Below, piece after piece: positions 1 through 37,780 of a DNA stretch of 64,000 nt. The stretch covers positions 16,864,224 to 16,928,223 of the forward strand of contig OX637287.1 in NCBI GenBank assembly GCA_951799445.1. Direction: 5' to 3'. The DNA comes from Pseudisothecium myosuroides. Its lineage: Eukaryota; Streptophyta; Bryopsida; Hypnales; Lembophyllaceae. The notes beneath the pieces were generated by a model. That model was given only the letters and a program-made list of their open reading frames with translations. It had not been told where the DNA came from and searched no databases. Made by a program: the position numbers and the translations under genes. Numbering within the stretch: position 1 is the stretch's first letter; the number at the start of each line of letters is the position of its first letter.

Positions 1-312
1 TTCTTAAGGTAAATTGCTTTTAAAGCGATCGATGAAGCTTACCTAACTCATAAACGACAGGAATTCAAAATTTGTAGAACATGTAAAGTGTTCAAAAAAT
101 TGGAGATGTACTTACTACCTTTAAGAAAGAAGGGATGATCTTAGTGACCGTTTACATTTTGGTAAACTATAGATGTCATTCTATCTGGAGAAGTTCTAAT
201 TAATTAGATGAGAATACGTTCATCAGTCTAAGAATGCTATATATTGAAGAGATTGTAGAGTTGGCAACAAGTAAGTAGAATTTATTTTCTTGTAGTATTT
301 TCGATTGGAGGG
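1..312. other. no feature recognised
   Basis: AT-rich sequence without a convincing open frame or repeat. It may be an intron or the 5' flank of the exon-like ORF that begins at 313. Confidence 0.3.
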
Positions 313-621
313 ATGCCAGAGGGTCATCGTAGGAAGCGACGTAAGGCAGGTCTTCTCTTTTCTAGTAAGAAGCAATTAGAGAAATTAAAGATGTTTAGAC
401 GCTTGCAGAAGGCCAATGGTGTTGAGATTAGTAGCATTGTTCGGACCTTGTCCTATGAGGATCATGAAGTTGAAGTTGAACATTTCCAAGTAGAAGATAG
501 TTTGACCCAAAATAGTGAAGGAGAAAATATTGCCAAGCTAAATAGTGTGGATGAAATTGAAGAAGACATACGCCAATTAAGTCCAGCAGAGAATAACATG
601 TTGCTAAGAAGCGTAGAGTTG
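313..621 (+). CDS. putative exon, basic-then-acidic hypothetical protein
   Basis: An ATG at 313 opens 103 codons, followed directly by a good splice donor (GTAAGC at 622) in phase 0. The N-terminus is very basic (HRRKRRK near residue 5, like a nuclear signal). The rest is acidic and probably coiled. I do not recognise it. It could be the first exon of a gene whose other exons I cannot see. It does not join in phase to the exon at 1183, which has its own ATG, so I keep it apart from the ParB-methyltransferase locus. Chance ORF is the main alternative. Confidence 0.3.
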
Positions 622-1182
622 GTAAGCTCATGTATTTGTTTCTAAAAATACAATGAATAGATTGTTAGGAGTTGAATTTATATACCCTTTTTTTTTTCTT
701 AGAGGTGCATTTGGCACCAAACATCTTATTGTGTAGCTTGAAAAGACGATTCCAACGGTGTGTAGCACGTTAAAAACGGACAGTTTTTGAATGTTTTACG
801 GCCTAAAAACGAAATCAGCATATTGGAATCTGGTCTGAAATCTTTAGAATCAGAAGATTTTTAGGCCAAATCTTGCCCGCAGAGTTTTTAGAGAACTTTG
901 AGGATTTTTAGAAAACTGGTCGTGAGTCCAAAAATTCTGAAAAAATTTGAAGTGACTTGTGAGGTTATAATCTATGTATAATAAAAATTTGGATTGAAAA
1001 TCTTCAAAATCACAAAATCTGTTAAGGAGATTCCCTTGCCCAAAATCTACCAATTTTTTTTTTTCCCTCTCTTCCCTGCCTTTGACCAGCAAAGAACTTG
1101 CCGGCTAGGGTTTGCTTTTGCATGGTCTTCTTTGTTTTGAATTGTTGGGTTTAGGTGCGCTTTGCTTTCTCTTGCTTTTACT
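622..1182 (+). promoter_or_regulatory. presumed promoter and 5' UTR of the ParB-methyltransferase locus
   Basis: There is no open frame here. A TAGGGTTT motif (1106-1113) sits about 75 bp before the ATG at 1183. Such telo-box-like motifs are common at plant transcript starts, and similar ones occur near the other genes in the window. A T-rich run lies at 1052-1065. The exact transcription start is inferred. Confidence 0.3.
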
Positions 1183-1347
1183 ATGAATTTACGGAGTGCC
1201 TTGCTGCGGAAGGATGGAGAGGAGCACGGCGAAGGTGGGGAGGGTGTCCCCGAATGCATTGAAGGAGTTTACAGTTTAGAAATTGAAGCGGCCGGAACTT
1301 CCCATCAGGTATCAAGTCGATTTTGGGTGTTACTTGCTTCCGTTGAA

Positions 1348-2880
1348 GATTGACGCCTCGTTGACGAGGCGTCAATCTTGGGCTGTTTTGTGTCTTCTTG
1401 GAATGTTGTAGGGTTTAAGGTATGTTTTCAAATTTCTTTTCAATTCTTTTCTATGCGCTGTAGAATATGACCTCGTCAACGAGGTGTCAATCTCGGGCCG
1501 TTTTCGGTCTCATTTTCATAGTAGAAGTTTACAATGCACGTTTTCAAAAAAAAATTTCACATGTTCGGTTTGGCTGGATTAGACCGCCTCGTCAACGAGG
1601 TAGCAATTTCGGGCTTTCTAGGGTCTCTCTGAAACGATACAATTTTAGAATGCATGTTTCCAATTCTTTTTTCAATTGTTGATTTGGGCTGAATTTCTTG
1701 ACCTCGTTGACGAGGTGTCAATTTCTAAATTGTTTAGAGTCTCACTTACATGATACAAATTGAAGATGCATGTTGCTAATTTTCACTAAGAACTACTGAT
1801 TTTGGCTGAATTTCTTGACCTCGTTGACGAGGTGTTAATTTCTGAATTGTTTAGAGTCTCACTTACATGATACAAGTTGAAGATGCATATTGCTAATTTT
1901 CTCTAGGAACTGCTGATTTGGGTTGAATTTCTTGACCTCGTTGACGAGGTGTCAATTTCTGAATTGTTTAGAGTCTCACCTAGATGATACAAGGTGAAGA
2001 TGTATGTTGCTAATTTTCACTTTCAATTGCTGATTTGGGTTTTAGGGCTGAATTTCTTCACCTCGTTGACGATGTCACAATTCCAAACTATTTAGGGTCT
2101 CACTCACACAATACAAATTGAGGATGCACATTTCTAATTCTATTTTAGATTGCTGATTTGTGCTGAATTTCTTCACCTCGTTGACGAGGTCACAATTCCA
2201 AACTATTTAGGGTCTCACTCACACGATACAAATTGAGGATGCACATTTCTAATTCTATTTTAGATTGCTGATTTGTGCTGAATTTCTTCACCTCGTTGAC
2301 GAGGTCACAATTCTAGACTATTTGGGGTCTCTCTTGCACAATATAAATTGAGGATGCATGTTTTTTATTCTATTTTGGATTGCTGATTTGGGTTGAATTT
2401 CTTCACCTCGTTGACGAGGTCACAATTCTAGACTATTTGAGGTCTTCCTTGGACAATTTAAATTGAGGATGAACGTTTTTTATTCTATTTTGGATTGCTG
2501 ATTTGGGCTGAAGTTCTTCACCTCGTTGACGAGGTCACAATTCTAGACTATTTGGGGTCTCCCTTGCACAATATAAATTGAAGATGCATGTTTTTTATTC
2601 TATTTTGGATTGCTGATTTGAGCTGAATTTCTTCACCTCGTTGACGAGGTCACAATTCTAGACTATTTGGGGTCTCCCTTGCACAATACAAATTGAGGTT
2701 GAATTTTCATTTTGAATTGTTGATTTGAGATTTTGGATTCAATTTCATGGCCTCATCGACGAGGTGTCAATTTTAAACTATTTAGGGTCTCACTTGGACG
2801 ATACAAGGTGAAGATGCATGTTTCTTATTTGTTTTGGATTGTTCATTTGGGCTGAATTTTATGGCCTCGTTGACGAGGTC
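1348..2880. repeat. intronic 115-117 bp tandem repeat with palindromic core
   Basis: About 14 units fill intron 1 (1309-2943). Each has ACCTCGT, a 2-nt spacer, then ACGAGGT. Cores lie at about 1348-1377 (14-bp arms), 1470, 1587, 1701, 1818, 1935, 2060 (one mismatch), 2175, 2290, 2405, 2520, 2635, 2751 (imperfect) and 2865. Spacing is 117 bp for units 4-6 and exactly 115 bp for units 8-12. The spacer is CA in the second and third units and TG elsewhere, that is, the core is flipped. Between cores the units share a pyrimidine-rich AGGGTCTCACT block and a GATGCATGTT block. Two CpGs per core are retained in AT-rich DNA. Confidence 0.9.
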
Positions 2881-3175
2881 ACAATTCTGAATTATTTTTG
2901 AAGGAAAATGTAACAAGTGTATCTTCTCTGTTTTTTAAAATAGAGCTTCATGGACGTTGATGGAGGCCTTCCACAAGTGGAGCAGTTAGAACGCGTCATC
3001 AACAATGATTCTGAACCTGTGATTAGCATTCTTGAGGTTAGATACATTTCTTATTATCTTTGCATGGATGTTGCATCAATCGTTCTTGTATTATAGTGGT
3101 CATTCAATTTGCTTCAATTTTCAATGACTTTCTACTATTAACTCTAATTTGTTTTGAATGTCCTATTCATTGTAG

Positions 3176-4064
3176 GCTCCCAACATCGTTGAAAGTCAAA
3201 GTGTTGATCCTACTTTTGAGAGGCGAACAGTAGAAGAGGTGGAGCAAGATGTGCGAATTGGTCAAAAATTTGACTCCAACACCGTCATCAAGAGTATGCT
3301 ATTCGATGGTGGTGGTCCAGGATCCCGATTTGATATTCCTTTATGCAGGATGATTGGGCTTCCATTGGTGCGTCTTCTTCTTCAAAGTCAGGTGAAACGA
3401 TTGGAGGCAGACTTTGCTCGTGGATATCGACCAGGTGATCGTGTATTCTATATGTCCACAACGAATGACAAAGGACTTTGCAAGTTGGTAACCCCTGAGA
3501 TCGTGGAGACATGGGATGAATGCTGGATACAAGAGAATGACCAATTTGAGAAATGGTTGCAGTCTCAGCCATCCATCTCACATTTGACAAACCATATGTT
3601 CTTTGTATGGGATGGCAATCATAGATTGGCAGCTTGGGTTGATTACATACACAGGATGCATCGTCATGAGCGCTTGTGGCATATGCCCGTTGACTGTATG
3701 CTTCTAGTATCAGAAGGTCGTACATGCATTCTATTGGAGGCTATGAATGACATCAATTGGTGAGTTTGGTAAAAAAACTCTTTTGTACTTTATCACTTCT
3801 TTTGATATGTTATTGTATTTTATGCTTTTAAATTCATTCATCTTACATTCTATTTGTATTGGTATTTGCAGGTCTACGGAACATTCTCATGTCAAGAGCA
3901 ACTTGGCTCAGCAGTTGCACAGGATGAGTTACTATGGCAACTTGAAACTAGAAGACTTCAAGGGTCTTTTAAACGATGAAGATTACAAAAAATGCGAAAA
4001 TAGGAAACTGCCAAGTGCTTGGTATCCATTGATATCGAATGTCTTTATACAGTTCCTTCACAGG
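3176..4064 (+). CDS. ParB-like domain exons of the fusion locus
   Basis: Exons 3176-3759 and 3872-4064 join across a split TGG codon (phase 2) and are open throughout, giving about 259 codons. The key block is FFVWDGNHRLAAWVDYI, which matches the (V/W)DG-x-HR-x-x-A signature of ParB N-terminal and sulfiredoxin-like folds. In bacteria and phages these domains bind or cut nucleotides and are often fused to DNA methylases. Upstream lies a helical QVKRLEADFARGY stretch like the segment that precedes this motif in ParB proteins. Downstream is a conserved-looking charged region (LEDFKGLLNDEDY). Third-position use and flawless splice phase suggest this part was under coding constraint until recently. 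Activity and DNA target are unknown. Confidence 0.6.
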
Positions 4065-5950
4065 GTGAGTGTCTTTTATTTGCAAAAAAAATTCATTCAT
4101 TTATGGTAATTTGTAGAATTTCTTTTGTATTCATTTAACATTCCTATTTTTCATGTACAGCAAGAAATTGCTGTTGTTTCAGATGCAGCAGTGCGAATGT
4201 ATTACGAGAAGACACAATTGCAAGATCGAACTCCAAAGGGAGTTCATGATGCTATGACCCAAGCCGCCACTGCAGCTATCAAAGGTTTTCGAACAGAGTT
4301 TGATAAACAATCAGCCATTGCAAATCCAAAAAATGGCATTGGATTTCTAGAAGAGGTGTATAATTCTTTCTATTTCCAAAGAATGGCTTCTATGATTACT
4401 TTTGGTTTTGGTTTGGTTTTGACTAAGGTTTTGTTTTTTGAAATTTCAAATTAACGTGCATTACAGCGCCAACGAGAAGTCTGAGATGTCATTGGAGAAA
4501 CTTCAAAGGATATCTACATGTGTAGTTCAGCCAAACCACAAGGTTCGTTGACTTCGGTGGTGGAACTCCAGCGAGACTTCTAGAGAGGGCTTTAGATTTC
4601 CAGCCCTTGGTTTTAACACATTGACTTTAGAGACATGGCTCTCTAATGCTGCTTTTTGGGCTGAGGTATGTTATCAATTTTTTCTTTCATCTACATATTT
4701 TATACTTACATTTTATAAGTTTATAAATATTTCAATTTTTATCTTATGGTTGTTCCATGATATGCTTTGCCTTAATAATGTCTTCATACTTATATTTCTT
4801 GAATTCTTTGTAGTTGGAAGAAGAAGCCAAAGCAGAATTTGCAAGCATCATCAAGTCTGAAAATATTGAGGTTCATTGGAGTGCCAACGATGAGTTAGAC
4901 AAGATTGGAGATTATGTAGAGACATGGCGCATTGTGTTATGGGATCATGCTTTTTGCTGGCTCTTCAAGAAGGACTCTTCATATTCGAGGTCTACTCCTT
5001 TCAAAGACCAAGAGGGTACAGATGTTGCATTGAAGAGGGTTCTGTACAGGTATATCTTTCACTTCAATTATATTTATTTATGTAAATATGACTTGCTTAT
5101 CAAATTCATAAAATTATCGTATTTGTATCTTTGTCATTGCAATAATCACCTTTATTCTATGATTTCAGATATTTCAAGCGAGAGCTGGTTCAAAAAGGTG
5201 GGATTGAGAGAAAATTCATGCCAAAGCTTTTTAGAGGGTGGCTTGACACGTCTTTGAAGGGCTGTATGTTCACCTTGACTCAATAGCGGGGGTATTCTAT
5301 TCAAGAACTCCAAGCTTGTCCTTGGTACCTAGAGTGTCCAAGGATCTTTGCTCCATCTCTTGAGGGCCCTGAGAAAGAGGTCGCTAAAGACCATCCCAAA
5401 ACAGCCACACAGGAGAAGTTTTTAGATGAAGAGGAGGAACCTGAAGAGGTTGCACCAGTGAAGAAGGGGCGCAAGCGAAGGGAGAAGAAGACTACAAAGA
5501 CGACGGTGAAAGCTACTACCACAAAGGACGATACTCCCTCTTCGTCTGTGCCAGCATCCGTTTTTGCACCTCCTCCTTCTCTTGTGCCTCCCACTACTTA
5601 TGAAGTGATTGATACTGCTCGCTCCCATTGCCCCCCAACTTTGATGTCTATTACAACAGATGTTTTTGCTTCATCAGAGTACATTGCTAGATCAGCAATT
5701 CAACCCGATAGGCATGGTATTGAACCTCAAGGTCTAGTTCTACCATCATCAATTTCTGCAATGCTCAGTGTCAAAGAAAAGACAGGGGACAATACATCAA
5801 CATGGGATGAAATGCTTGATTTTGCAAAGAAGGTAAGATCTATATTCACTAGCCTTGTTCTAATTCTCTCTTTTTAATTTCACATGAAGTTATAAATATG
5901 GCATTGCAATGCATTCATATATCTAAGAATGTGTATTTTCTAATGTCAAG

Positions 5951-7360
5951 GTTGGGAAGGAGCGGGTGCGAATTCTTGGAGGTCATGTGACCCATGGTCC
6001 ATGTTTTGACTTGGTTGTTGCTGATATTCCGGATGGACTACCGGTCCCCAATGTCTCAGTTCCACCTTCGCATGTTCCTGCTTGGAATGTGTTGAATCCA
6101 GAGGAAGTTATTGAACCCATCTTTGAGTTCGCTTCGGAGTATATTCATGATGATGGAGCAATTTTATTGTTCCACCCAGAGAACGGGAAGGTAAAAGAAT
6201 TTTCACTTGAGCGTGCCGATACTTATGGCTTCTGTTTGCTTGACTCTCGGATGGGCGTAAATGAGTTGAAACTTTCCAGCTACAAAAAAACCAAACGTTG
6301 GGTAAGCTCCATTGAAATTGCCTTCATTTATAAATTTTGATGTTTGAATCTACTTCTAGCAACATTGTATTTGTCAAGTATTAATCTTCATACTTGTTTA
6401 TCCTTAGCAGTCACAATGCTTTCGGATCCTTCTTTTTGTACGAAGAAAATGGGAGGAAACATTGGTGGAGTCTAAGTTCTCAATCTATGTGAACCAGCAA
6501 CTTAGCAATGCAGGCACAAACCTTGAAGAAGTGGACCTACTCCACAACTTCACTTCCTTGCAGACTCAGCTCATGAATGGTGCAGTTCCATGGAGAGGTG
6601 CCCGTGAGAAGGATCCTCTGTTTGTACAGCTACTGATAGAGGCATTTTCAAAACCGGGTGATGTTGTGCTAGATTGTTATGCATCTACAGGTACCTCCCT
6701 TGAGTTTTCATTATTCAAATTATGTTCTTATTACATTGTGTGTAACATGTTTCTTGCAACTAATGATGTTGTATGCAATGAACAGGGGCCTCCATTCATG
6801 CATGCCGCAATATTGGACGCCATTTGGTGGCTTTGGAGAGCGACAGTGAGATTTTCAAAGTTGTCCTTCAACCTTTGAACAAACCTCTTGCTTCTACTGC
6901 CACGATCCAAACTAAGCGCCCTTTGCCTATAGTGCTTGATGATTCTGAAGATGAGGACGTTGTGAGGCCTTCTACAAGGCCCCGAAAGAGACGTTGCTGT
7001 AAGTAAGTTGATTGTTGTTTTTAAGCATGTCTAAGTTTTTTTTGTATTGTGTAATATCTCAAAATTAATTTAATTTCTAATCGTTTATTCATTGCATCTT
7101 GTAGAGGCAATCGTCTCCAACATTTTGTGCTATCGCCTTTTCCTAGTTCCAAGAGTTTGCCATGTTATATTGAGACTCTAGCAACAGCTATGGCAGAGGC
7201 CCCATCACCCATTTCCATTACCAAACGTCGTTCATACAATGTTGCTGTCAAGAAGTTTTTAGACCTTGAAGCTGATGTTGAAACACCAGGGCTTACATGC
7301 AGTGATAGTAGTCAAGTTAGTGATCATTCTTCTCCCATATGTGGTATTGGGTCGAATTGA
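5951..7360 (+). CDS. C-terminal methyltransferase-like exons of the fusion locus
   Basis: Four exons (5951-6301, 6411-6690, 6786-7002, 7105-7360) form one open frame of about 368 codons ending in TGA. The first holds FDLVVADIPDGLP, where a DPPY/SPPY-type catalytic motif IV is expected, then YIHDDGAILLFHPENG, like the motif V-VI strand region. The next two hold KDPLFVQLLIEAFSKPGD, then VVLDCYASTGA and GRHLVALESD, matching the SAM-binding motif I and following acidic strand of beta-class (IV before I) N4/N6 DNA methylases. DIPD lacks the Pro-Pro-aromatic core, so catalysis is doubtful. The acceptor at 6406-6410 is a NAGNAG pair. The donor at 6999-7008 is a tandem GTAAGTAAGT, and only the second site keeps frame. 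Confidence 0.6.
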
Positions 7361-8551
7361 TCCGACTTGTTTCAGATACTACTGTTGTTACTTGATTTTC
7401 TAATGCATGTAGTGAGACTAAAAGGGCCACTACATTCTTGCACCTTATTCTATTCTAGAGTTATTTTGCATTCTTGTGATTTTTGGAGTGGTGGTAATGG
7501 TTATCATCATTCTATTGGACATCATTTTGGAAGACATCTTCATTTTAGAGGTCAATTAATAGAAATTTTTGTAGATTGAATCTATTTCTCCCAATTAGCA
7601 ACATGTTGTTTCTCTTAGATGGAAGTATGTAATTAGAACTTTTTAACCTTTAAATGTCCACGCAGCCATTCTATGGCCGATGGATGAGAGAAAATCAAAC
7701 TGTGTAGGCCAAAAATGCAAGTATTCATCCTTGAAATCTATCGTAAAAAGGGAAGATCTTCTATAGACTTCCAATGAGCACTATTGCAATGAAGCCAATG
7801 ATTCACACGGTAATGCAAAAGGATGATTTTGAGGGTCACCCCTCCGTCTTTTAAGGATTAATGTTGGTGTTAGCATAGAAATAAATTTGGTGAAATTCAA
7901 TAATGCTTAAAAAGAACTAAATTTTAATTGGAAATAGTACCTTTCTTGAAATGGTTTCCTAACACCATATAAGCATATATTTCTAGTTTCCAAATAGTCA
8001 CTCTAAACCTTAGATCTAAGATACTTGGTAATTGACCCTTATCCTAAACAATTGATTTTTTTTAACCATTTAGCTATCATCTAAATTCCTTCTCATCGAA
8101 TGCCATGTATACAACAAATGTATTTCATCCAACAAAGTTGACTACAAAAAAAATTCATCCAATTGCATTCATTTCCAAAAAATTCATCCAACCACATTCA
8201 TCTCCAAAAAAAATCATCCAACTCCATTCATCTCCATTCATCTCCATGATCATGGGTCTTCACTCTAAAAAAATTTATGCTCACAAGCTCATGCTCGCAC
8301 GCTCACAAAATAGCAACCCTGGGATACGAGATGGGTAGAATTGATGGCATACCATAAGATTCTGATAGTGAATATGACTCCTAAACTTTCAAGCTCATGC
8401 TTTGCTAATCATCAACCCAACCTCACCGTGAAAACAGAGCAAGTCTCAATTATGTGAGCCATGAACCCTACTTCATCACCACAATACAAAATGAGGCTAA
8501 CCAATGGTTTAATCCACGCCACTTGCAACTACAAAGATTATAAGGAAAAAA
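7361..8551. other. 3' flank of fusion locus; AT-rich; short CATTCATC minisatellite
   Basis: No gene is supported. The first few hundred bases are probably the 3' UTR of the fusion locus. At about 8120-8247 a degenerate repeat of roughly 33 bp (AATTCATCCAACCACATTCATCTCC-like, with A-runs) occurs about four times; its short open frame is repeat-derived. Confidence 0.4.
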
Positions 8552-14300: not shown

Positions 14301-15721
14301 TATGAGTCCCAAGTGACAAATTGGGAGCTCATAGAGCCTAAATCGACATTGATTGTGTAATATGGATACACAATAGTAGAGTCTTTTTTCATATGGAGTT
14401 TATTGTATTCAATTTATCATTTTGAGTTTTTTGAAGAGAGAGAGACCTAAGCTAGTTAGATGCACCCTCCAACTAAAATTCTTGCATATAATATAATAGT
14501 GATTATATATTTGAGTGTACAAAGTGTGATCTTTTTCCTTTTAACATACATGACATATATAGCTTAGCCAATTTCATAAATACCATTTGCTTTTATTAAT
14601 TGCATGATTATTATATCCTAAACCAAAATCACAAAACCTCTATTGCCTAAAATTCTATTTTATAGCAATTGACATATTATTTTAAATTCTCAAGCTTAGT
14701 AGACATACCCTAAATCTTTAAACCACGGTCATAGGTCTTAAACTCAAACAATATAGTAAGTACCTTATAAATCGAAGGCTTTCAAGCTCTTAAGCTCTCG
14801 ACCTCACATTCCAAGGCTCACAAAATAGCATTTTTGCAATAATTGCCCAACAAATTTGAACAATTTGAAAACATGTGTTTAGAAATTCCTTCGATGATAT
14901 TTATATCAAAAAAATCTTACCTAAATTGAAATATGAAATATTGGTTGGAGGCAATATCATCAATTATTTAAAATAATAATAATTTGGATGTGTTCGTGTA
15001 TTTGCAATACTTTATCCTTTGTCGGTGTCAACAAATTTCTTAAAATTTAAAAATAAATTGATATTTCTTCCTTGCAATTTAGTGCCATATGTATTAAGAA
15101 CTTGGTTGATCACATTCTACTTCTAATTTCTATATAACTTAGGGATTTTATTTTTTTGATATTTTTTATTTTTGTTCTTGTGGAAAAAAAATGTATCTTG
15201 GCATCTATCATTGAGATTATTCTAATTTGAAAGTATGAGGTGGAAGTTTTATTTAACCTACATCACAAAGTTGGAACCCTACGAAATGTCACTAATTATC
15301 GTGTGGTTACTATTGCTTCATGGATGCGCACGTTAATTTACAATTTTATCGCATTGTTACGATGCCCACGATTTTTGCACAAGTGTAAAAATCCTACAAA
15401 AATCCTATAAAAATTCTACAACCGGCCATGTAACAACCACCACAAATAGTGATGCCACCAAGGTTTGAACCGTGGACCTCCAAGTTGAGGCCCAAGGTTC
15501 TTAACAATCCAATTCACCACTAACTCACACATGTGTCCAAAGTAGGAGTTGGAAGTTATTTACCAAGTTTTTGCAGTTTTTTTCCAAGTGCTTTGTAAAA
15601 TCAGCAGACTTCAGACCTCATTTAGGCATAGAAAATCAATTTTTTTAAAATGAAATTAACTTTCACCTCCAAAAATCCGTTTGTGATTCAGAGATTTTTA
15701 TAAAAAGTTATGGACAAAATT
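14301..15721. other. no gene; AT-rich spacer
   Basis: AT-rich intergenic DNA. A GGTTCAAACC motif on the - strand near 15465 resembles a tRNA B box, but no tRNA fold or A box accompanies it. Confidence 0.3.
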
Positions 15722-16073
15722 CATTGCAAAAGAAAAATAGGACAAAGATCTCATTTAATTCGATTAAAACATCTCTACAAAACATAAGATTTGCCAAGAT
15801 GTGAATAAATAAAGTAATTCAATAGATTATAATGTGGATGAAAGTACAAAATTGATGGATGGATGTCCAAAAATGAATGATTGTTCTAAACCAAGGTCAG
15901 AGGTCCAAAATTGTCCCTTTAAATCTACCTATCTCACCAATGACAGTAATAGATATTTCAAGGAACATGTTATTGAATCTTAATTAGGGGATGCATTTAG
16001 AACCTAGTCACTTTCAACCTTCAAGTTAGGATGCATTTCTGATGGAAAACATTTCTGTTTACTTTTACTACCA

Positions 16074-16631
16074 TTAATAAATAGAGTTACTCCTCTTCTG
16101 GACTAAGGACAATTTAAGAGTCCACAACTTTTCAAATGTATCTTCAAATTCATTCATTGCTCCTAAGAGTTGTTCCGCAGTGCAAGATGTTTGTAAATAG
16201 AATGCTCGCATTAATTCTTCATAACAGAAAATTTGGTTCACGAGTGATTTTACGGCTTGATAAACTGCACTAGCAACAATGTCAGCATCTACACAATATT
16301 CCACAGCTCTTGATGTACATGGATAATATTTAACAACAACAATTCGTGCTCGCTCCAGCAATGTTTCAAGATCTACACGGTCATCATGTACAGATGTAAA
16401 AAATCTCAATAATGATATGAATGCTTGTGATAATTCTACCATGATCTGCACTGGCTCATCAGGTTTTGTATTAAATACAGATCTAGAATCCATTTCTGAT
16501 GATGAATCCAAATAAGTTGAATTTGTTTGTAATGTTGAATCCAAATAAGTTGAATTTGTTTGTAATGTTGAATCCAAATGTATTGAATAGTCTGTTTATG
16601 GTATTGAATCCATCTGTGATGTTGAATTCAT
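16074..16631 (-). pseudogene. hypothetical helical protein ORF in duplication copy 1
   Basis: An ATG at 16631 reads 11 codons, then meets TAA (16596-16598). The frame then stays open for about 173 codons to a stop at 16074. The N-terminal part is a short repeat of DSTLQTNSTYL; the rest has an internal Met and looks like a folded helical protein (VELSQAFISLLRF, RARIVVVKYYPCTSRAVEYC, EDTFEKLWTLKLSL). I do not recognise the family. The same frame is identical in copy 2, including the early stop. It may be an exon with an upstream acceptor, or an ORF that starts at the internal Met. Confidence 0.4.
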
Positions 16632-18557
16632 TTGCAAATTTGTTTGGGCAAGAGTACTGTATTTTTGATATGATGTAATTGCTCTATTCTTATTATATTT
16701 ACAAATTGAATGTTTGAAACAATATGACTATTATAATTATGTAAATATATAAAGAACATATAAATATACAAAGAAAGTAATTATAGGTGCCAAATTGTTT
16801 TATATGTAGTTGATCTTGTTTTTTTTAGAAAAGTAAAATAATAAAGTAAAAAGTGATAGCAAAGAAAAAAATGACTTTTTCCACATTAGTTATATAAATT
16901 AAAATGAGTATTTTAGTTATAATATTCAAATGTCTATTTTTATAATATTTTTTTTAATAAAAATAGAAATATTTATATTTTTATCTCATTAGCAATTTGA
17001 TTCCATGTGGAATCAAATTTTATTTGAATACCTTCCGTCTATTGTGGCTCTCAAAATGTTTTACAAAATTTGCCATAGCTAATTGATTAATTAAAGATTT
17101 TGAAAAAAAAATTGGACATATTCTGGTACAAGTACTACACTTATATTAAATGAAAATTTTAAATTTTAAAATAATATTTTGATTTTTTAAGAATTTAATC
17201 AAATTCATTAATGAAAAAATCTTTAGTACAAGTAAAGTTTTTTAAAGATTCATTGGTAAGTGGAATAAAAATGCTTTTTAGAATTTTTTGGTAAACATTA
17301 CACAAATTTTGAAATTTTATTGAGTGAAATATCACTGACTAAATTATGATTCCAAATATTTATGATTTTTATACTTTACTCCAAAAATCACCAAAAAGTT
17401 TATGAAAAATTTGAAAAGTATATTGTATATATTACACACACAAACACACACACTTATATATCTAATTTATTTGAAATTATTTTCAAATGTATTTAGAACA
17501 TTTAAATTTTAAAGATGTCATTAAAAATTATAAAATAAAATAAATATTAAAGCATTAAAAACATCAATAAATTTTACTTTAAGGATATATCTTTTCTTTT
17601 CCAAAAAAAATTTATAGTTCTGAAAAGTTTTTCCAAATGTGTAGAAAAAAAGGTAAATGATATAAAATACACACATTTAAAGAATTAGTCAAACGTCTTC
17701 TCTACAATATTATAAACAATTCCAAATAAGTAAATAAGTAAATAAACATCTTGAAAAAACAAAAATTATAGGAAAAAATGAATCTACGATGATTTATGCT
17801 AGTGAATAGCATTGATGTTTAATTTTCCACCTTATACCTTGAACACCAATACACTTCATTAGAGGAGATTTGAACCTCTGGAAGACTATTTCAGGGCTGT
17901 TCCCGATGCTGGGAACTAATGCCTTGTTGTCTAAAAAAATTATTAAAAAAAAAAAGTTGTTAAAATGTTAAAAGAATACTAAAAAAAACTCAAAATTTTT
18001 TTTTTTGACGTGGCAGTCGCTTGGCCATGTCAGACTGATGATTTGGCAGCCTCCCAGCATTTCTGCCTTGTTCCCACAGTCCGGGAACTCGCAATCTTTT
18101 AAAGGCCTAAATCTCCTCTAATGCATAACATTCTCACCAAAGTGCACACAAAAAGAAGTCATGAATTTATTAACTTTGACAAAGTGACAATTGGCACCAA
18201 TAAAAATTGAAGTTTTAATTTCAATTATTTTGAAGGGTGCAAAAAACAATCTTTATTTGACTGATGAAGTTATTAACATCCATATGCACCAAGTAGACAA
18301 TAAAAATAAGAATGAATATAACTTATTTGTTAAAAAATGAACAAAACTATATCAAGATTTTTAGCTATTAGCAATTTCATCCAATTAAAAAATTCTATCC
18401 GTGAATATTCTTTTATCTCTTTTTCAAATTATTACTCAAAACATAAAATTTGGTATAAATTCTCTCTAAAGATATTTTAGAAAACCAAACATTGTTAATC
18501 TTTGAAGAACTAGGTCCATTATTGTATAGTCCATCATCATATCTAAACTCAAATTAA

Positions 18558-21155: not shown

Positions 21156-22178
21156 TTAACCTTTTAAATTATAGTTGAAATTCAATGTTGTATTTTTATT
21201 ACATGGGACAATTTGTTGTCTATTAAAGTAAATAAAATTTAAATCTCCATTGGTTTTGTGACAAATTAACGTTGTTCTGGCCGAAAAATGAAATTGAATT
21301 GGTAAATAATAACAAAACAATCCAATTCTTAGTCTAAATCAAATATCAACTTGAATAATCTTAAATGGCATCACAGTTGACAATATAAAACTTTATTGAT
21401 TGAGCAATGTCTAGATCTTCTAGAATGTTTCTAAAAGTCAATTTTGCACCACACAAATTGCTTCAATAAGCGTAAAAATTTGAATAGTGCAAGACCCCCT
21501 TGCACAAATTTGAATAGTTTTGGATGAAAGTGATTAAATTGTTATTGTAAATCTTTGGATGAAATTTAATTTAAAATGAGATTAAAATTGGATAAAAATA
21601 GATGAATGGATGATAAATTGATGAAGTTGGATGCAAATTATATGAATTTGAGATATTATGAAAATAGTATAGGCTACATTATATAAAATTTATCTATAAT
21701 ACATGAACTTACATATTAATAATTTGGATATGACTACAAATATTGGGGCTTTCAATTTGGAGAGTATTTATGTTTGAAATTTATATATTTATTTTTCAAT
21801 GATAAAATCATGTGTTGTCTATTAGTTATAAAAGTTTCAACTTTTTGTCAAAAAATTGAAAATATTGTGATTTTCTTAAAAAAATTAATGAAAACAAGTT
21901 TATCTCAAAAAATATGATTTTTTTCCTATATATGTATGTCATATTGTAGAATATCATGGATTAAAATAATTTTTAATATTTTTCTATAATTGAAAACTCA
22001 TTATACTATGGTTACAGATCCAATTTTCAATTACAATCACTTCAATTTTAGGAATTTTTCAAATGTTCAAGTTGGAGTAGACACTACACCTTGCACCACA
22101 CATCATTGATTTTATTTCATAATAATAATAAGTTAGGCTAAAATTCCAGAAGATCACTTTTTTGGGTTCAACTTTACA

Positions 22179-22751
22179 TCAAGAGCAAGAAGCTGAAATT
22201 TGCCAAAATACATTATACAATGATTGATGGATAAAGAATCTTTCTATATAAAGAAGGCAACAATACCTCAAAGAGAGAATTTTCAACACCACCTTCTTGC
22301 AAAAGCTCTCAATCAAGTCCCCTAAAAACTTTGGATGAAAAATTAATTTTTTTATCTTCCTAAGGCCAAATGTCATCCAAAGCTTGTTTTTTTACCCTTC
22401 TAGCAGTCCGGTTGTAGGCATATAGTTTGTTTGTTTTTTGACTAATTGTCCTTTGCTTTATAAAACGAGACCAATCATCAAATTGTTCACATTCATACAA
22501 TAATGTAGGCTAATCATTTTAAAAAAGAAAAAGATTAGGTTTAAAATGTTCTAAATAGTTTGGATTTGAAAAGAGGCAGTTGGAGACTTTTTGAAATGAC
22601 TAACACTTGCCTTCTTCTTTAACATATAGTCTAATGATTTGAAGGGTTTTTTTTAACTCTCTCTTCATTTCAAGTAAAGGAACTTGGAAAGACTTACGTG
22701 TATTCTTATTGATAATTTTTGTGTAATAAAAGCTTTAAGCATATATTGTAA
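22179..22751. other. duplication sequence without a gene
   Basis: Continuation of duplication copy 1. The empty site of the copy-2 insertion, CTAAAAAC, is at 22322-22329. No supported gene. Confidence 0.4.
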
Positions 22752-24301: not shown

Positions 24302-26891
24302 TTATGCAGATCGTTGGGTTGGGGTGATCCACGTCTTGCTAGACACCGGTAGTTTCGTTCCTGCCACGTTCTTCATTTTTGTCGCACCCCACCCCGACTG
24401 AAGCTGTGAACGAAGGCCCTGTAGTTCTTCGGTGGACAACTCCGCCAACGAAGCAGTCCGTAGCCGCTCACTAACATTAACCTGCATTCTCCAAGAACGC
24501 GAAAGAAAAAACAGAGCCAGCTCATACTTGGAAGCGAGGATGGCCATCTCGTTCTTCCTGGATCGCGAGCCAACAGGGGATAGTCTACCCGGTTGCAGCT
24601 GCAGAAAATCGGCCTTTGCTACTCGGAGGGCCGAATACTACGTTGATGCAAAAAGAGTGTCGCGCCACTCTTTGCAGGTTGCTGCAAGGCGAGGGAGGAG
24701 GGCCAATTCGCCTTCCTCGTCCACGAATGCCCGCGTGCCTCCCAAGAAATGCGAGACTTCACCTTGGTCTCATCTTCAGCCAGAATGACAGGGACAGGCC
24801 CTTCAACTCCATACGCCGTTTTTGCCTCCGTATAAATCTGAGCAACTGCAACAAATAGAGATGCATGCTCTTCGGCAATAAACTGGACACCTTTGTTATT
24901 TTCACGCTTAATAGTATCATACGAAGGCCCCCCAAAATTCAAAGCAAAAAGATCACACATATGGCGGCCTCCATAAATCTTCATTGCTTGCGCAAATGAC
25001 TTGGTATTTTTGGAGAACCTGTGACCCTGCCTCACTCGATTCAAGTTTGTGGCGACATCCCTGAGGAAGTCCCACAAAGTTGGCTTTCCCCCAAAAGCGT
25101 TTGTTTTGTGAGCCGCCAAGATGTTGTTACAAAAGGAGAGCACGTCCTTTCTGTTAAAACTCTCTACTGCACTAAGTTCTAGACCACGCTGCCGAACTTT
25201 AAGTTGGGCGACCCTAGCCTTCATGACCCAGTGCATGGCCTTTTCTTTACAATATTTCTTAGCCAATTGTCTAGAATGTCCCGCTAATTCTTGGGATGAC
25301 AAGTAATCTACACGTCTTCCAGATTGAGTATCCCTACAGCCTCTTTTCACAAGCGCACGACTTTCACGAAGCACCCTCAATCTGAAATCAGTAGCATTCA
25401 CAATTTCTGAGCAATTCGAACACCTCAAATTTGGAAAGGGCTCTCCTGTGACGGACAGGCGTTTACAGAGCAAATGGCGGAAGCAACCCATGACAACAAT
25501 CCTTTCATTATTGTATAGGAAATCTGCAGCAGTACTTGGCTCTGGTACCCACAGTGTTCCAGCCTTTCGATCATTCAAGAGAGAGTCCACTCTGTACACC
25601 TTACCGCCATATTCAACTGTTTTGTTTCTAAAACCCCAACACAGCAATGCAAGAATTGAGTCCGGATTCATACCTGATTGACATTCCGCTGTTGTTCTGG
25701 ACCCTCCAGTAGATGAACCGTTGAACCAAGTGTGCAAATCAGGTTGATTCCCAATGTTAGATCTGGACCTCCTTGTAGGCCTACCCCTTTTGCCAGTGCT
25801 CAGTGCAGCAGACCTTGTTGTGGAATTCGCAGCCGCAGCCAAGTCCTCAACACATTTTGTGTGAGTGAGCCCGTGGAGGTGATTGTCTAAGTTGATTCTT
25901 AGGTTATTTCTTTGTGGGCACAACATCAATATTTCCCCATCAATTTTGCAACGTACCTTGTACCAAAGCGACTTCAAAAGACAACCCCCCACATCTCCTA
26001 CCAGTACAAATGGAGGATCATGTAAACAGACAGAGTCATTCACACTCTTCAAAATACTCAAACCTTCTTCCACAAGTCGCCAATGGTCAGCTGGAGTATA
26101 GATGATTGGTTTACCCTTGTTTCCTTCCTTTTGAGGATGATCAGAGTAAAGAATCCCCTTCTTCTTGCACCATTGCTTGATATGTAATGTGGAGTGCAGA
26201 TGAGACTTCTTGAAATTAGCAAACAGGTTCTGTATAGCTGCCCGATCATGTTCACCGCTACACCCCCCGGTTTCCTTGTTGCATTCTCCGCAGTGAATCT
26301 TCACGACTCCCACGCCATGCTGATCGTAACTTTGAAGCCTCCATGCATGATCTACGAAGTCCATGTCGGCTAGCTCCCAGTTAGCTTCAGAGCAGCACGC
26401 TTGTAATTTTCCTTGATCTCGTCGGAAATCAATTCTGACAGCCAAAAATTCTCCTCCTCTTGAACCACTTCAGGCATATGAATGTCTTCAATCACTTCAA
26501 CCTCCTGCAAAACCGGGGGGACACTGTCTTCCAACTCCTGCACGTCAACACTTGGGCACACCAATTCTTGGGGTGCAGGAAAGTCATTGCTTCCAGTTTC
26601 TCCGACATTGTTCAAGCAACTTCGCTTGTGCACTCGTCCACCGTCCTCCTCCTCAGGAATCACGTAAACCCGCTCCAACACTGGATTCATCACCTCGAAT
26701 TTGTTTCGCACGCGACATTCTTCATCAAAGTCCCAAAATTGGAACGGCCAGTCGATGCAACCCCCTTTCTCCATACGCAAACGCAAATCTGCATAAGTGT
26801 CACCACTTTGACAAAAAAATGGACTGAAAAGCTCCAACAAAGCGCTCTCATGTGCAACCGTGTAGAGTTTGATTTTGAAATTCAAAGTCAT
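24302..26891 (-). pseudogene. transposase-like gene of the 4.7 kb element, broken
   Basis: An ATG at 26891 opens 174 codons: an aromatic/acidic N-terminus, then a very acidic stretch. The frame stops at 26370, but the next frame is coding-like from about 26375 (LADMDFVDHAWRL) to about 24645, so a 1-nt indel is likely. That frame has a CGEC...HLHSTLH cluster, a second CPQRN...HLHGLTH cluster and a CSNC pair (zinc-binding candidates). Later blocks are GGRHMCDLFALNFGGPSYD and VPVILAEDETKVKSRISW, the latter with acidic residues that may belong to a DDE/D site. After WEARG the sequence loses sense; a C-terminal-like piece (RTASLAELSTEELQGLRSQL) follows near 24480, so a middle part may be deleted. 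Placement inside a TSD-flanked element is the strongest argument for transposase. I do not recognise the superfamily. Confidence 0.6.
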
Positions 26892-27470
26892 CTTGCGAGC
26901 CCACAACACGGCTACAATTCCAAGGCGAATTTCCTAAACCAGCAAAGGAGACCGACGTGAACCCTAATTGCAAAACTCGCAGGAAACCGGCGAAACAGAA
27001 GCGTGGAACCCTAGATTCAGAAAGACGACAAAGACTGAGCCCCAACGACAACCCCAGACGGACAATCTCATTGACGTGTCCCGAACTCGATCCGACGACC
27101 ACAAACACACGAAGGAATTGCATCCCAACGGCTAAAAACTCACTGTTTGCACTAATTTTCCAGCACATACGGCAGCCCCAGTTAAGACTTCAAATTTTAC
27201 TGCACTGACAAATTTCCCAGCTCATAAGGCAACCCCAACTAAGACTTCTGTCCCAACAAATTAATATCAAGGGGGTATCCTAGGTCTACTTTTTTTTCTA
27301 ATGGAGCCCATTATTCTACACCCTATAGTAGTTTGAAGACATTCAATGGTATTTCCTATACACTACAGTATCCTAAACCAAATTATAATTTTTATCTCCT
27401 TTTTTTTTTGGGACCCTTACATTTGTTCGCACCTATATTTCTACTTCTTCCGCTTACTACTTCCCCCGAG
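26892..27470 (-). other. 5' region of transposase gene and right end of transposon
   Basis: GC-richer up to about 27200 (presumed 5' UTR/promoter), then AT-rich terminal DNA. The terminal 200 bp match, in inverse orientation, the left end of the element at 34778. Confidence 0.5.
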
Positions 27471-28232
27471 ATTGTATGTAAGTCCCAATGATTGGGCAAC
27501 TTGGTGTATATAGTTTATTTGAAGTTCAAATCCCAATGATTGGGTTATGTAAGAAATTGTGAGTGTGTACCCAGGGATTGGATTTTTGTTCTTTGACAAT
27601 TTGTAAATTGTAATGGCCAATGTATCAAAACCAGTTGTTGGATTATATAATTTGTATTTTATTCATAATCTTTCCTATTCTATGACAAAATTCCTTGTGA
27701 ATAAACCTTTGCTACTAAACTACAACAAAAATTACAATCTCACTGGAGTTGTTAGTTTTTGGCACGACACCGGTGTTTCAAGGTTCAGTCATGTGAGATT
27801 GAATAGTACTTGCAAAATTGTGTCAAAATCAAAAATAAGTAAAAATCTAATAACATTTCAAACATTTATTGGGAAGGGAGGTCTCTAATTTTTGTGGTGA
27901 AGCATGATCTAGAAACTTGATACAAATGCATGTGGAAATATGCAAAAGTTATGGAATAAGTCACCTTAGAATACGTAGAATGAAGTGCGAAAGATGCAAG
28001 ACATAGAAGTCACATGCGCTCTTGATGGAAGCAGCATTTTGGAGGTAGAAGTAATAAAGAATGTCTTTTTGACGGAGCCAAAAAAATCTAGCATCTCCAT
28101 TTATGTGCAACAAAGTTTTGCATATTTTAATAGGATTTTATGACATATTCCTATCCATTTACTCCTAAGATGGTGCTTATAGCTTATACCTTTGAAGCTA
28201 CAAGCTTTGATGAATGAAGACTATTGCATTAA

Positions 28233-29625: not shown

Positions 29626-30947
29626 AGTGTAATAGAATAAGTATAATACAATACAAGTTAAATATATTTAGTACAAGCAAACAAATAGATATAAAATTAT
29701 ATGAAAATATAAAATGAAATCATACATATATATAGGATGTTCAATGTAAAAAATAAAAATTTTATTTTTAATGTAGTACTTATGTATGGATGTCAAACAA
29801 ATTAAAACATCAAACTATATATTTTCTTCAAAATTTCAGACCACACTTTTTTGTGAATGACTTTTTACTTTGATTTTTTTAGGTCTGAAATTTTGGTGAT
29901 ATGCTATTTCTAGTGTTATACTAATTATCCTTATTTTATTTTATTTAAAAAAATTCATATGCAAAAAGCTCATAGTACTGGGAATACTAGCCGAAAACAG
30001 CCAAAGTGGAACAGAAACAATCAGTCATTCATGCAATCACCCATTGCAATCACACTATAGTTGTGTTTATTGATGACCATGAATAGATACAATTAGAATT
30101 GTCAATGCCAGTGCAGAGTGCACTATCATCCTCAATTGTTGTGTGGTTGTGTTGAAGTGGCATACCGCATTACATCCACATATGTAAACTTGGTTGATGA
30201 AATTCCCAATAAGCCAATGGATGACACATAATCTTTTTCTCCTAAATGACTAGGTTTTCAAATACAACTTGTCCATATCAAGTGAAGGTCTCCAAATTTG
30301 CACAAGTTGTATATGTCATGTATGATTGAAGTGAAAGTTGTAAAAGGAGTCATGCAACCCTCCTCTTTTCTTCTAGTAATTCACATTCATTTGGCATTTA
30401 AAAGCCACAACTATAAGTTTTTTAATGATAGTCATTAAATAACAATATACCCCAAATCAAAGGTTGGATGCGAAGGTGTTAAGGTAGTAATTTTTTCAAC
30501 TACTAAAAAATATATTACTAAATAGGAAAAAAAATTCAAAATATAGTCCCAAAAGGTCAAAAAATGAAATAGTTTTCATCTATAGATACAAATAACTCTA
30601 TACTAAAGTAATTTTATTTAAACCAAGTATTAATTTTTTCTCTTTTTCATAGCTTTTTAGAAATATGGGAATATAAAATATAAAGCATATTTAGTTTATG
30701 CTTGGGCAATTACTTCTAATAAATATAGCTTGCTTTGCCCACCTTTTACATGTACAATATAAGGACTACCTTTTCCAAGAAATGAATCCCTCAAAGTAAA
30801 TGGTATGGATGACACTTTTTTCCTAGATTCACATGGCATATCACTATTTAGTTCTTTAACAAGCTTAGTCTTCACTCCCTCCAATGACTGCTAAATTTTC
30901 TTGTAAATTTTTTTGAATGATTTTTCTTGATTTTGGTATAAGATATC
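29626..30947. other. no gene recognised between tandem repeat and copy 2
   Basis: AT-rich sequence. A short frame at 30696-30884 on the - strand has no recognisable features. Confidence 0.3.
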
Positions 30948-31298
30948 ATTGCAAAAGAAAAATAGGACAAAGATCTCATTTAATTCGATTAAAACATCTC
31001 TACAAAACATAAGATTTGCCAAGATGTGAATAAATAAAATAATTCAATAGATTATAATGTGGATGAAAGTACAAAATTGATGGATGGATGTCCAAAAATG
31101 AATGATTGTTCTAAACCAAGGTCAGAGGTCCAAAATTGTCCCTTTAAATCTACCTATCTCACCAATGACAGAAATAGATATTTCAAGGAACATGTTATTG
31201 AATTTTAATTAGGGGACGCATTTTGAACCTAGTCACTTTCAACCTTCAAGTTAGGATGCATTTCTGATGGAAAACATTTCTGTTTACTTTTACTACCA

Positions 31299-31856
31299 TT
31301 AATAAATAGAGTTACTCCTCTTCTGGACTAAGGACAATTTAAGAGTCCACAACTTTTCAAATGTATCTTCAAATTCATTCATTGCTCCTAAGAGTTGTTC
31401 CGCAGTGCAAGATGTTTGTAAATAGAATGCTCGCATTAATTCTTCATAACAGAAAATTTGGTTCACGAGTGATTTTACGGCTTGATAAACTGCACTAGCA
31501 ACAATGTCAGCATCTACACAATATTCCACAGCTCTTGATGTACATGGATAATATTTAACAACAACAATTCGTGCTCGCTCCAGCAATGTTTCAAGATCTA
31601 CACGGTCATCATGTACAGATGTAAAAAATCTCAATAATGATATGAATGCTTGTGATAATTCTACCATGATCTGCACTGGCTCATCAGGTTTTGTATTAAA
31701 TACAGATCTAGAATCCATTTCTGATGATGAATCCAAATAAGTTGAATTTGTTTGTAATGTTGAATCCAAATAAGTTGAATTTGTTTGTAATGTTGAATCC
31801 AAATGTATTGAATAGTCTGTTTATGGTATTGAATCCATCTGTGATGTTGAATTCAT
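31299..31856 (-). pseudogene. hypothetical helical protein ORF in duplication copy 2
   Basis: Identical at the protein level to the ORF at 16074-16631, with the ATG at 31856, the same early TAA, and a stop at 31299. About 790 bp around it appear identical between the copies, while flanks differ at several percent. That pattern would fit gene conversion or selection. Function unknown. Confidence 0.4.
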
Positions 31857-34777
31857 TTGCAAATTTGTTTGGGCAAGAGTACTGTATTTTTGATATGATG
31901 TAATTGCTCTATTCTTATTATATTTACAAATTGAATGTTTGAAACAATATGACTATTATAATTATGTAAATATATAAAGAACATATAAATATACAAAGAA
32001 AGTAATTATAGGTGCCAAGTTGTTTTATATGTAGTTGATCTTGTTTTTTTTAGAAAAGTAAAATAATAAAGTAAAAAGTGATAGCAAAGAAAAAAATGAC
32101 TTTTCCCACATTAGTTATATAAATTAAAATGAGTATTTTAGTTATAATATTCAAATGTCTATATTTATAATATTTTTTTTAATAAAAATAGAAATATTTA
32201 TATTTTTATCTCATTAGCAATTTGATTCCATGTGGAATCAAATTTTATTTGAATACCTTCCGTCTATTGTGGCTCTCAAAATGTTTTACAAAATTTGCCA
32301 TAGCTAATTGATTAATTAAAGATTTTGAAAAAAAAAATGGACATATTCTGGTACAAGTACTACACTTATATTAAATGAAAATTTTAAATTTTAAAATAAT
32401 ATTTTGATTTTTTAAGAATTTAATCAAATTCATTAATGAGAAAAACTTTAGTATAAGAATTTTTTTAAAGATTCATTAGTAAGTAGAACAAATTTTAAAA
32501 TGCATTTTTGATAAACATTACACAAATTTTGAAATTTTATTGAGTGAAATATCATTGACTAAAATATGATTCCAAATATTTATGATTTTTATACTTTACT
32601 CCAAAAATCACCAAAACGTCTATGAAAATTTTGAAAAGTATATTATGTATATTATACACACACACATATATAATTTATTTGAAATTATTTTCTAATGTAT
32701 TTTAAGAAATACCTAAGATTTTAAAGTGTCATTTAAATATTAATGATATTAATGATTAATATCTTTAATAATGTTTTAATTACATTAGTAATTAATGTTT
32801 TAATGACATTAATGGTATTTAGAGCATTAAAATTTTAAAGATTTCAATAGAAACTATAAAATAAAATAAATATTAATGCATTAAAACATCAATAAATTTT
32901 ACTTTAAGGATAAAGCTTTTTGATTTTCAAAGAAGTTTATTGTTCAGAATTTTTTTTCCAAATGTATAAAAAAAAAAAGATAAATGAGATAAAATACAGA
33001 CGTTCAAAAATATAGTGAAATGTCTTTTCTACAATATTATAAACAAATCCAAGTAAATAAATAAACATCTTGAAAAACAAGAATTATAGGAAAAAATGAA
33101 TCTTCGATGATCTATACTAGTGAATAGCATTGATGTTTAATTTTCAACCTTATACCTTGAACACCAGTACACTTCATAACATTCGCACCAAAGTGCATAC
33201 GAAAAGAAGTCATGAATTTATTAACTTTGACAAAGTGACAATTGGCACCAATCAAATTTGAACTTTTTAATTTCAATTATTTTGAGGAGTGCAAAAAGCA
33301 ATCTTCATTTGATTGATGAAGTTATTAACATCCATATGCACTAAATAGAAATTAAAAATAAGGATGAATGTCATTTATTTGTTAAAAAATGAACAAAACT
33401 ATATCAAAAAATTTAGCTATTAGCAATTTTATCCAATTAAAAAATTCTATCCTCAAATATTCTTTTATCTCTTTTTCAAATTATCACTGAAAACATAAAG
33501 TTTGGTATAAATTCTCTCTAAAGATATTTTAGAAAACCAAGCATTGTTAATATTTGAAGAACTAGGTCCATTATTGTATAGTCCATCATCATATCTAAAC
33601 TCTAATTAACCTTTTAAATTATAGTTGAATTTTGATATTGTATTTTTATTAATGGGACAATTTTTGTCTATTAAAGTAAATAAAATTTGAATCTCCATTG
33701 GTTTTGTGACAAATTAACATTGTTGTGGTCAAAAAATGAAATTGAATTGGTAAATAATAACAAAACAATCCCAATTTTTGGTCTAAATCAAATATCAATT
33801 GAATATTCTTAAATGGCATCACAATTGACAATATAAAACTTTATTGATTGAGCAATGTCTTGATCTTCTAGAATGTCTCTAAAAGTCAATTTTGCACCAC
33901 GCAAATTGCTTCAATAAGCGTAAAAATTTGAATTGTGCAAGACCCCCTTGCTCAAATTTGAATAGTTTTGGATGAAAGTGATTAAATAGTTATTGCAAAT
34001 TTTTGGATGAAATTTAATTTAAAATGGGATAAAATGGAGTGAAAGTAGATGAATGGGTGATAAATTGATGAAGGTGGTGAAAATTACATGAATTTGAGAC
34101 ATTATGAAAATAGTCTAGGCTAGATTATATTGAATTTATCTAAAATACATGAACTTATATATTAATAATTTGGATATGACTACAAATATTGGGGCTTTCA
34201 ATTTGGAGAGTATTTATGTTTGAAATTTATATATTTATTTTTCAATGATAAAATCATGTGTTGTCTATTAGTTATAAAAGTTTCAACTTTTTGTCAAAAA
34301 TTTAAAATTATTGTGATTTTGTTAAAAAAATTAATGAAAATAAGTTTATCTCAAAAAATATGATTTTTTTCTATATATGTATGTCATATTGTAGAATATC
34401 ATGGATTAAAATAATTTTTAATATTTTTCTATAATTGAAAAATCATTATACTATGGTTATAGATCCAATTTTCAATTACAATCACTTCAATTTTAGGAAT
34501 TTTTCAAATGTTCAAGTTGGAGTAGACACTAAACCTTGCACTACACATCATTAATTTTATTTCATAATAATAATAAGTTAGGCTAAAATTCCAAAAAGAT
34601 CACTTTTTTTGGCTCAACTGTACATTAGTAGCAAGAAGCCGTCAAATTTGCCAAAATACATTACACAATGATTGATGGATTAAGAATCTTCCTATATAAA
34701 GAAGACAACAATACCACAAAGAGAGAATTTTCAACACCACCTTCTTGCAAAAGCTCTCAATCAAGTCCCCTAAAAAC

Positions 34778-36280: not shown

Positions 36281-37780
36281 CTAAAAACTTTGGATGAAAT
36301 TTTAATTTTTTTTGTTTCCTAAGGTCAAATGCATCCAAAGCTTGTTTTTGGACCCCTCTAGCAGTCCGATTGTAGCCATATATTATTTTTGTTTTTGACT
36401 AATTGTCCTTGGCTTTGTAAAACGAGACCAGTCATCAAATTGTTTTCACATTGGTGCATTAATGCAGGCTAATTCTTTTTAAAAAGAAGAAGATAAAATT
36501 TAAAACGTTCTAAATAGTTTGGATCTTAAAAGAGGCCGTTGGAGACTTTTTGAATTGAACACTTGCCTTCCTCTTTAGCATATAGTCTAACAATTTGAAG
36601 TTTTTTTTTTTCACTCTCTCTTCACTTCAAGTAAAAGAATTTGGAAATACCTACGTGTATTCTTATTGATAATTTTTGTGTAATAAAAGCTTATAGCAAA
36701 TATTGTGAATCGTGTATAAGTCCCAGTGATTGTGCAACTTGGTGTGTGTAGTTTATTTGAAGTTTGAATCCTAGTGATTGGGTTAAGTAAGAAATTGTGG
36801 ATGTGTATCTAAGGATTGGATTTTTGTTCTTTGACAATTTGTAAATTGTAATGGCCAATGTATCAAAACCAGTTATTGGTTTATATAATTTGTATTTTAT
36901 TCATAATCTTTCCTATTCTATGGCAATATTCCTTGTGAACAAACCTTTGCTACTAAACTATAACAAAAATTAAAATCCCATTGGGGTTGTTAGTTTTTGG
37001 CACGACACCAGTGTTTCAAGGTTCAGTCATGTGAGATTGAATAGTACTTGCAAAATTGTGTCAAAACCGAAAATAAGTAAAATCTAATAAAAATTTAAAC
37101 ATTTATTGGGAAGGGAGGTCTCTAATTTTTGTGGTGAAGCATGATCTAGAAATTTTATACAAATGCATGTGGAAATATGCAAAAGTTATGGAATAAGTCA
37201 CCTTAGAATACGTAGAATGGAGTGCGAAGATGCAAGACGTACAATTCACATGCACACTTGATGGGATGAGCATTTTGGAGGTAGAGTTGACAAAGAATGT
37301 CTTTTTGATGGAGCCAAAAAAATCTAGCATCTCCATCTATGTGCAATAAAGTTTTACATATTTTAATAGGATTTCATAACATATTCCTATCCATTTACTC
37401 CTAAGATGGTGCTTATAGCTTATACCTTTGAAGCTACAAGCTTTGATGAATGAAGACTATTGCATTAAAGAAGAATAGGTCTTTTGAATGGAAAAAATTC
37501 TAGTTGCTTCCTATATATTGCTCATATTTCTTGGTGCAATATACATTTTGCATGAGTTTTTTTTTTCTATTTTGATAACATTACTATTTGATGTATTCAT
37601 AATCCAAAATGTCTCATTCTTGCCTTTTACTCTTTTGAGATTGTACTATGGCATTGTATTCAAACAATTTTGTACTTTTTCATATATCATAGACAAGACC
37701 TATTTATTTGTTCACTTACGGTCTCTTTGCACTATACAAGATGAATCATGATCATTTTCTAAACAAGACATGTGCATCAC

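Follow-up and report, generated by a model that had tools for sequence, protein, structure and literature searches.

A ParB-like domain and a DNA methyltransferase (MTase) domain occur together in the accessory gene of Sola1-1_Ec32, a Sola-1 transposon of Ectocarpus, for which green and red algal relatives are also cited (PMC12477816). Bacterial and phage fusions, such as Bce_0392 and a protein of phage Vincenzo, likewise join a ParB/Srx-type domain to an amino-MTase, and DNA nicking has been reported for Bce_0392 (PMC5512222). A different accessory protein, VANC, binds short motifs arranged in tandem in the Mutator-like VANDAL elements of Arabidopsis and induces loss of DNA methylation; related VANCs have different targets (PMC5735166). 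We analysed a 64,000-nucleotide stretch from the moss Pseudisothecium myosuroides (contig OX637287.1, positions 16,864,224 to 16,928,223; the window), whose left part carries a ParB–MTase gene. It is an accessory gene, one of the two genes of a large DNA transposon, and the transposon has multiplied in the genome. ParB–MTase transposon proteins are thus already published for algae, and the present family is a variant with palindrome arrays.

The algal proteins are likened to ours by published description, not by sequence. Both elements are DNA transposons with the accessory gene on the strand opposite to the transposase (an identity that is inferred in the moss), and both accessory proteins have ParB-like and N4/N6 MTase domains, with 1104 amino acids there and about 1,050 here. 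The Sola-1 element is 21.5 kb long, whereas the moss element is 13 kb with a 10-bp target site duplication (TSD). The published passages on the algal element mention neither palindrome arrays nor loss of the catalytic tetrad. Among the open-licence PMC papers listed, none describes a gene of this kind in mosses; palindrome arrays were not searched for there. A search of 5.8 billion proteins, in which shared 5-residue words were required, returned only M758_11G066700 of Ceratodon purpureus, a hypothetical protein of 1084 amino acids. It is colinear with ours over the ParB half, the middle and the MTase half, contains WDGNHR and has a degenerate motif IV (DTPD), but it is only about 25% identical and its PF01555 score of 24.1 bits lies under the 26.7 cut-off.

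The gene is the second of a 13,045-bp element. The window copy and one on G000:C6 (about 12.9 kb, 95–96% identical) are colinear from window position -4723 to 8321, and similarity ends abruptly on both sides. The G000:C6 copy is flanked on each side by a perfect 10-bp duplication, AATGGCAACT; a third copy is interrupted by an inserted stretch. Terminal inverted repeats (TIRs) and a TSD in two copies, along with dispersed, recently multiplied copies, mark the element as a TIR DNA transposon. To the left of the window, within the element, minus-strand open reading frames (ORFs) of 729 and 477 amino acids make up a divergent gene that is probably the transposase. Reading this gene by eye, we take it to contain conserved Asp motifs, Cys/His finger-like motifs, CxxH and what are presumably WRKY/GCM1-like and SWIM-like fingers. 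The 477-amino-acid ORF has at least 91 matches in the genome (944 candidates, 89 scored) and part of the 729-amino-acid ORF at least 90 (737 candidates). Among the 91 listed matches of the former, a ParB match within 20 kb is divergent in 55 cases, convergent in two and on the same strand in none. None of ten members of the left-hand gene, nor its own two ORFs, matched a Pfam transposase family; the left-hand ORF had no sequence match in the PDB, and the structure model of the candidate (predicted local distance difference test score 41.8) was too poor to use. The 10-bp duplication and the SWIM-like finger are compatible with a Mutator-like element, as the TSD falls within the range of 8–11 bp given for that group (PMC6446971).

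As the original prediction had it, the window contains one multi-exon locus, for which sequence models give 11 exons on the plus strand and a product of about 1,050 amino acids. Exons 1–5 splice through GT-AG introns into a single open frame of 397 codons. Exons 6–11 were modelled with the Ceratodon homologue and a paralogue as guides, and the MTase half is open across 5287–5832, 5951–6301, 6411–6690 and 6786–7003. Two in-frame stops interrupt the window copy, which is free of frameshifts. The gene had been predicted to extend to 7360; its frame closes at a stop codon at 7004–7006, and a longer product would require an alternative splice. A candidate motif I in exon 6, DFGGGTP, proved to be in the wrong frame and was corrected by the Ceratodon-guided model. 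Across the genome, 96 of the 150 listed ParB places are followed, on their own strand and at no more than 8 kb, by an MTase-exon match, about two-thirds of these at 2.5–2.9 kb; neither of two control arrangements gave any (0 and 0). This pairing and the colinearity with the annotated 1084-amino-acid Ceratodon protein indirectly indicate that the ParB and MTase halves belong to one gene, not to the two separate genes named as a refuting outcome. We note that the C-termini of several copies have recurrent hydrophobic-acidic tails resembling small ubiquitin-like modifier (SUMO) interaction motifs, for example VLDDSEDED, LVDLDEE and IVDLDEEED. A short ORF upstream of exon 1 (Table 1) differs from copy c4 by 1.0%, with flanks at 2.6–3.0%, and had no match among 11 other upstream regions; it is possibly a first exon or a small third gene.

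The predicted structure of the exon 3 domain, which carries VWDGNHR, resembles ParB and has the ParB/sulfiredoxin fold. The ParB-like block proposed for this exon is therefore borne out by the model, but not by any sequence profile. The ParB families of Pfam, PHROGs and NCBIfam had no match to the ParB half, and PF02195, one of two profiles suggested as a check, was absent both from Pfam scans of the protein and from a family search of the genome. Foldseek with the domain model gave no match at E ≤ 0.001. In BFVD the ParB exon had a weak structural match (E 5.7e-2) to the DNA methylase of Mycobacterium phage Vincenzo, a point of difference from the bacterial and phage fusions. The 20 phage matches listed in a tblastn search with the Ceratodon protein, which had 107 further records beyond the list, cover its MTase part only, and with the MTase piece alone as query the listed matches fall on the MTase part.

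The other suggested profile, PF01555, matches the MTase block above its curated cut-off (E = 9.1e-8 and 3.5e-8), so the other outcome named as refuting, a profile hit to neither fold, is not what was seen; this match and the structural match of the ParB domain uphold the proposed two-domain fusion. The block has the beta-class amino-DNA-methyltransferase order, motif IV before motif I, as had been claimed, and its profile alignment is of CcrM length. The catalytic tetrad of amino-MTases is (D/N/S)PP(Y/F/W). In the window motif IV reads DIPD, degenerate as originally noted, and the tetrad is likewise altered in every relative examined: it is kept in none of 29 sequences (eight models and 20 open exons from the genome, some mutually close, plus Ceratodon; L029 and c4 were excluded as near-duplicates). 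The first position is D in 28 of the 29; at the third, 18 have P and 9 have K; and at the fourth, 27 have D or E. All ten models from the host genome have S or A in place of the first glycine of motif I; Ceratodon keeps G. On sequence, then, the domain retains the Rossmann core and has lost the DPPY tetrad, which makes ordinary N6-methyladenine or N4-methylcytosine formation less likely than a role as a binding platform or an altered chemistry.

A family in this lineage had been anticipated and was found. The host genome has at least 150 places with the ParB exon (150 scored among 417 first-look candidates) and at least 150 with the first MTase exon (296 candidates), a few of these places being fragments of one copy. 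Seventeen full-length ParB-exon places, 92–100% identical in amino acids, are spread over nine large contigs. Four of ten modelled regions (L039, L029, L043 and L044) are free of stops and frameshifts over an aligned range that omits roughly the first 70–95 residues. Eight pairs were compared for dN/dS (nonsynonymous over synonymous divergence), of which four were saturated. Values of 0.12 for L044/L045 (MTase part 0.15) and 0.17 for L042/L038 (MTase part 0.28) are imprecise since dS exceeds 1. For two very similar pairs the ratios were 0.50 and 1.08, the pattern expected when copies decay after insertion, and the window/c4 value is blurred by the wrong-frame guide for exon 6. Among the 17 ParB exons of the window subfamily (136 pairs) mean dN was 0.020 and mean dS 0.059. 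The family is thus very large, includes open copies and bears signs of purifying selection.

Intron 1 contains a palindrome array (Table 1), in which two of the 14 palindromes carry one mismatch. Across the 12 inner units the palindrome core is 96% conserved, and non-overlapping 14-bp stretches reach 89% at best. In comparison with 16 close copies, 103 of 2407 core positions differ, as do 1666 of 16503 in the remaining array. The exact 14-mer occurs 415 times (211 + 204) genome-wide, mostly through array amplification, and a reversed control 0 + 0 times. The same core was found in two other subfamilies with other unit lengths. L076, which has no blastn similarity to the window element and whose ParB exon is 39% identical to the window's, has upstream of that exon nine sites with up to two mismatches (two exact) at intervals of 79 or 158 bp. 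In L038, CCTCG-N4-CGAGG occurs six times, with four of five intervals at 137–139 bp and one at 277. Other subfamilies have different recurrent palindromes, or none in the stretch examined. At least three recurrent palindromic sites were present in 3 of 17 upstream regions, 0 of 17 coding controls and 1 of 39 window tiles; at least two, a looser threshold picked after the data were seen, in 7 of 17, 0 of 17 and 1 of 39, with L029 and L030 belonging to one subfamily. Two further arrays lie away from listed ParB matches: L075 (G000:C2:815300-819800), with 125-bp units about 65% identical to the window's and six exact cores, and G000:C1:32290927-32293865, with the same palindrome at mostly 125-bp spacing. 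Both are possibly non-autonomous or decayed elements.

The combination of a ParB–MTase protein type, as in algae, with a VANC-like target layout favours a cis-targeted anti-silencing or epigenetic role. We lean, by a modest degree, towards a protein acting on the DNA of its own element through ParB-like palindrome recognition and a non-canonical MTase-like domain. The ParB-like domain, by itself or together with the MTase-like one, would recognise the palindromes adjoining its own gene and load there, as ParB does at parS; the palindromic site CCTCGTTGACGAGG is a candidate target. The MTase-like domain would most likely serve as a platform binding DNA or S-adenosylmethionine, or have an altered chemistry. 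The element would gain escape from silencing near the starts of its two divergent genes, as VANC provides for VANDAL. VANC is likewise a transposon-encoded accessory protein with tandem noncoding motif repeats that vary among related families, but the motifs described for it are non-palindromic (PMC5735166), and the likeness drawn here is one of layout. Binding, anti-silencing and transposase identity are all inferred. More tentatively, the family might be a self-recognition system made from a bacterial-type ParB-methyltransferase, in which a ParB-like clamp sits on subfamily-tuned palindromes (a eukaryotic parS analogue) and a conserved pseudo-methyltransferase shields the element against silencing; it would then be a convergent counterpart of VANC, unrelated to it.

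The palindromes might instead be bound by the transposase or by a host factor and be unrelated to the ParB domain. We regard this as possible though doubtful: they are close to the divergent gene starts and 38 of the 100 sites listed have no listed ParB match nearby, but the other 62 are upstream of ParB exons by no more than 3 kb. A main rival is an active N6A/N4C DNA methyltransferase that marks the transposon encoding it, the role proposed for the algal proteins (PMC12477816). It would account for the beta-class domain of CcrM length and for the low dN/dS of the MTase part in two pairs, and the palindromes could serve as its methylation targets. Loss of the tetrad in every sequence examined argues against such simple self-methylation, as does the altered motif I glycine of the host-genome models, and we consider it unlikely. 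Somewhat less likely still is a helper of transposition or replication, with the ParB-like domain nicking or clamping element DNA or aiding the transposase. The nicking reported for Bce_0392 (PMC5512222) and co-travel with a transposase-like gene would fit, but a search of the left half of the element found no palindromes, and a single internal array does not resemble end-binding sites. That a captured prokaryotic module was rebuilt as an ordinary plant nuclear gene, as originally predicted from its spliced structure, is rejected for this locus as highly improbable on account of the TIRs, TSDs, many dispersed copies and co-mobile second gene, together with the two stops in the window copy, even though a homologue stands in an annotated moss protein set.

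Table 1 Features of the transposon and its ParB–MTase gene in the window
Feature	Position	Strand	Remarks
Right 8.3 kb of transposon	1..8321		left end 4,723 bp beyond the window's left edge
Short ORF, 102 amino acids, basic start	313..618	+	inside element; open in copy c4
Exon 1	1183..1308	+	predicted; GT donor; amino acid identity 95% in copy c4, 93% in copy c2
Intron 1 array, 14 palindromes CCTCGT(TG/CA)ACGAGG every ~115 bp	1356..2878		candidate protein-binding sites
Exon 2	2944..3036	+	
Exon 3	3176..3759	+	ParB/Srx-like domain, VWDGNHR
Exon 4	3872..4064	+	
Exon 5	4161..4355	+	
Exon 6	4480 (or 4428)..4665	+	first in-frame stop
Exon 7	4814..5049	+	
Exon 8	5169..5832	+	charged linker; second in-frame stop
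Exon 9	5951..6301	+	MTase motif IV region, DLVVADIPDGL
Exon 10	6411..6690	+	PWRGAREK (motif X-like) and VLDCYASTG (motif I)
Exon 11	6786..7006	+	GRHLVALESD (motif II region), SUMO-interaction-motif-like acidic stretch, basic tail, stop
Right TIR, 43 bp, 86% identical to left one	8279..8321	-	
Right TSD, 10 bp, GGATACGAGA	8322..8331		same as the 10 bp preceding the left end

Elsewhere in the window, blocks 93–97% identical are duplicated 9–15 kb apart (15721–17530 and 30946–32742; 21156–22329 and 33606–34777; 27479–28232 and 36717–37468), with an identical minus-strand ORF of 173 amino acids at 16074–16595 and 31299–31820. Minus-strand ORFs of 616 and 187 amino acids at 24619–26933 may encode another mobile-element protein; the 616-amino-acid ORF had no Pfam match at E ≤ 0.01. 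The nearest host-like gene seen is a DEAD-box helicase exon (PF00270, E = 1.7e-7; L036:200-577, minus strand), about 5.7 kb to the left of the element.

The moss element extends ParB–MTase transposon accessory proteins from algae to a moss. The palindromic core, recurring at different unit lengths, offers a concrete candidate cis site for a eukaryotic nuclear ParB-like protein. With a family of this size, in which some copies are open and purifying selection has left signs, function should be testable in a tractable group.

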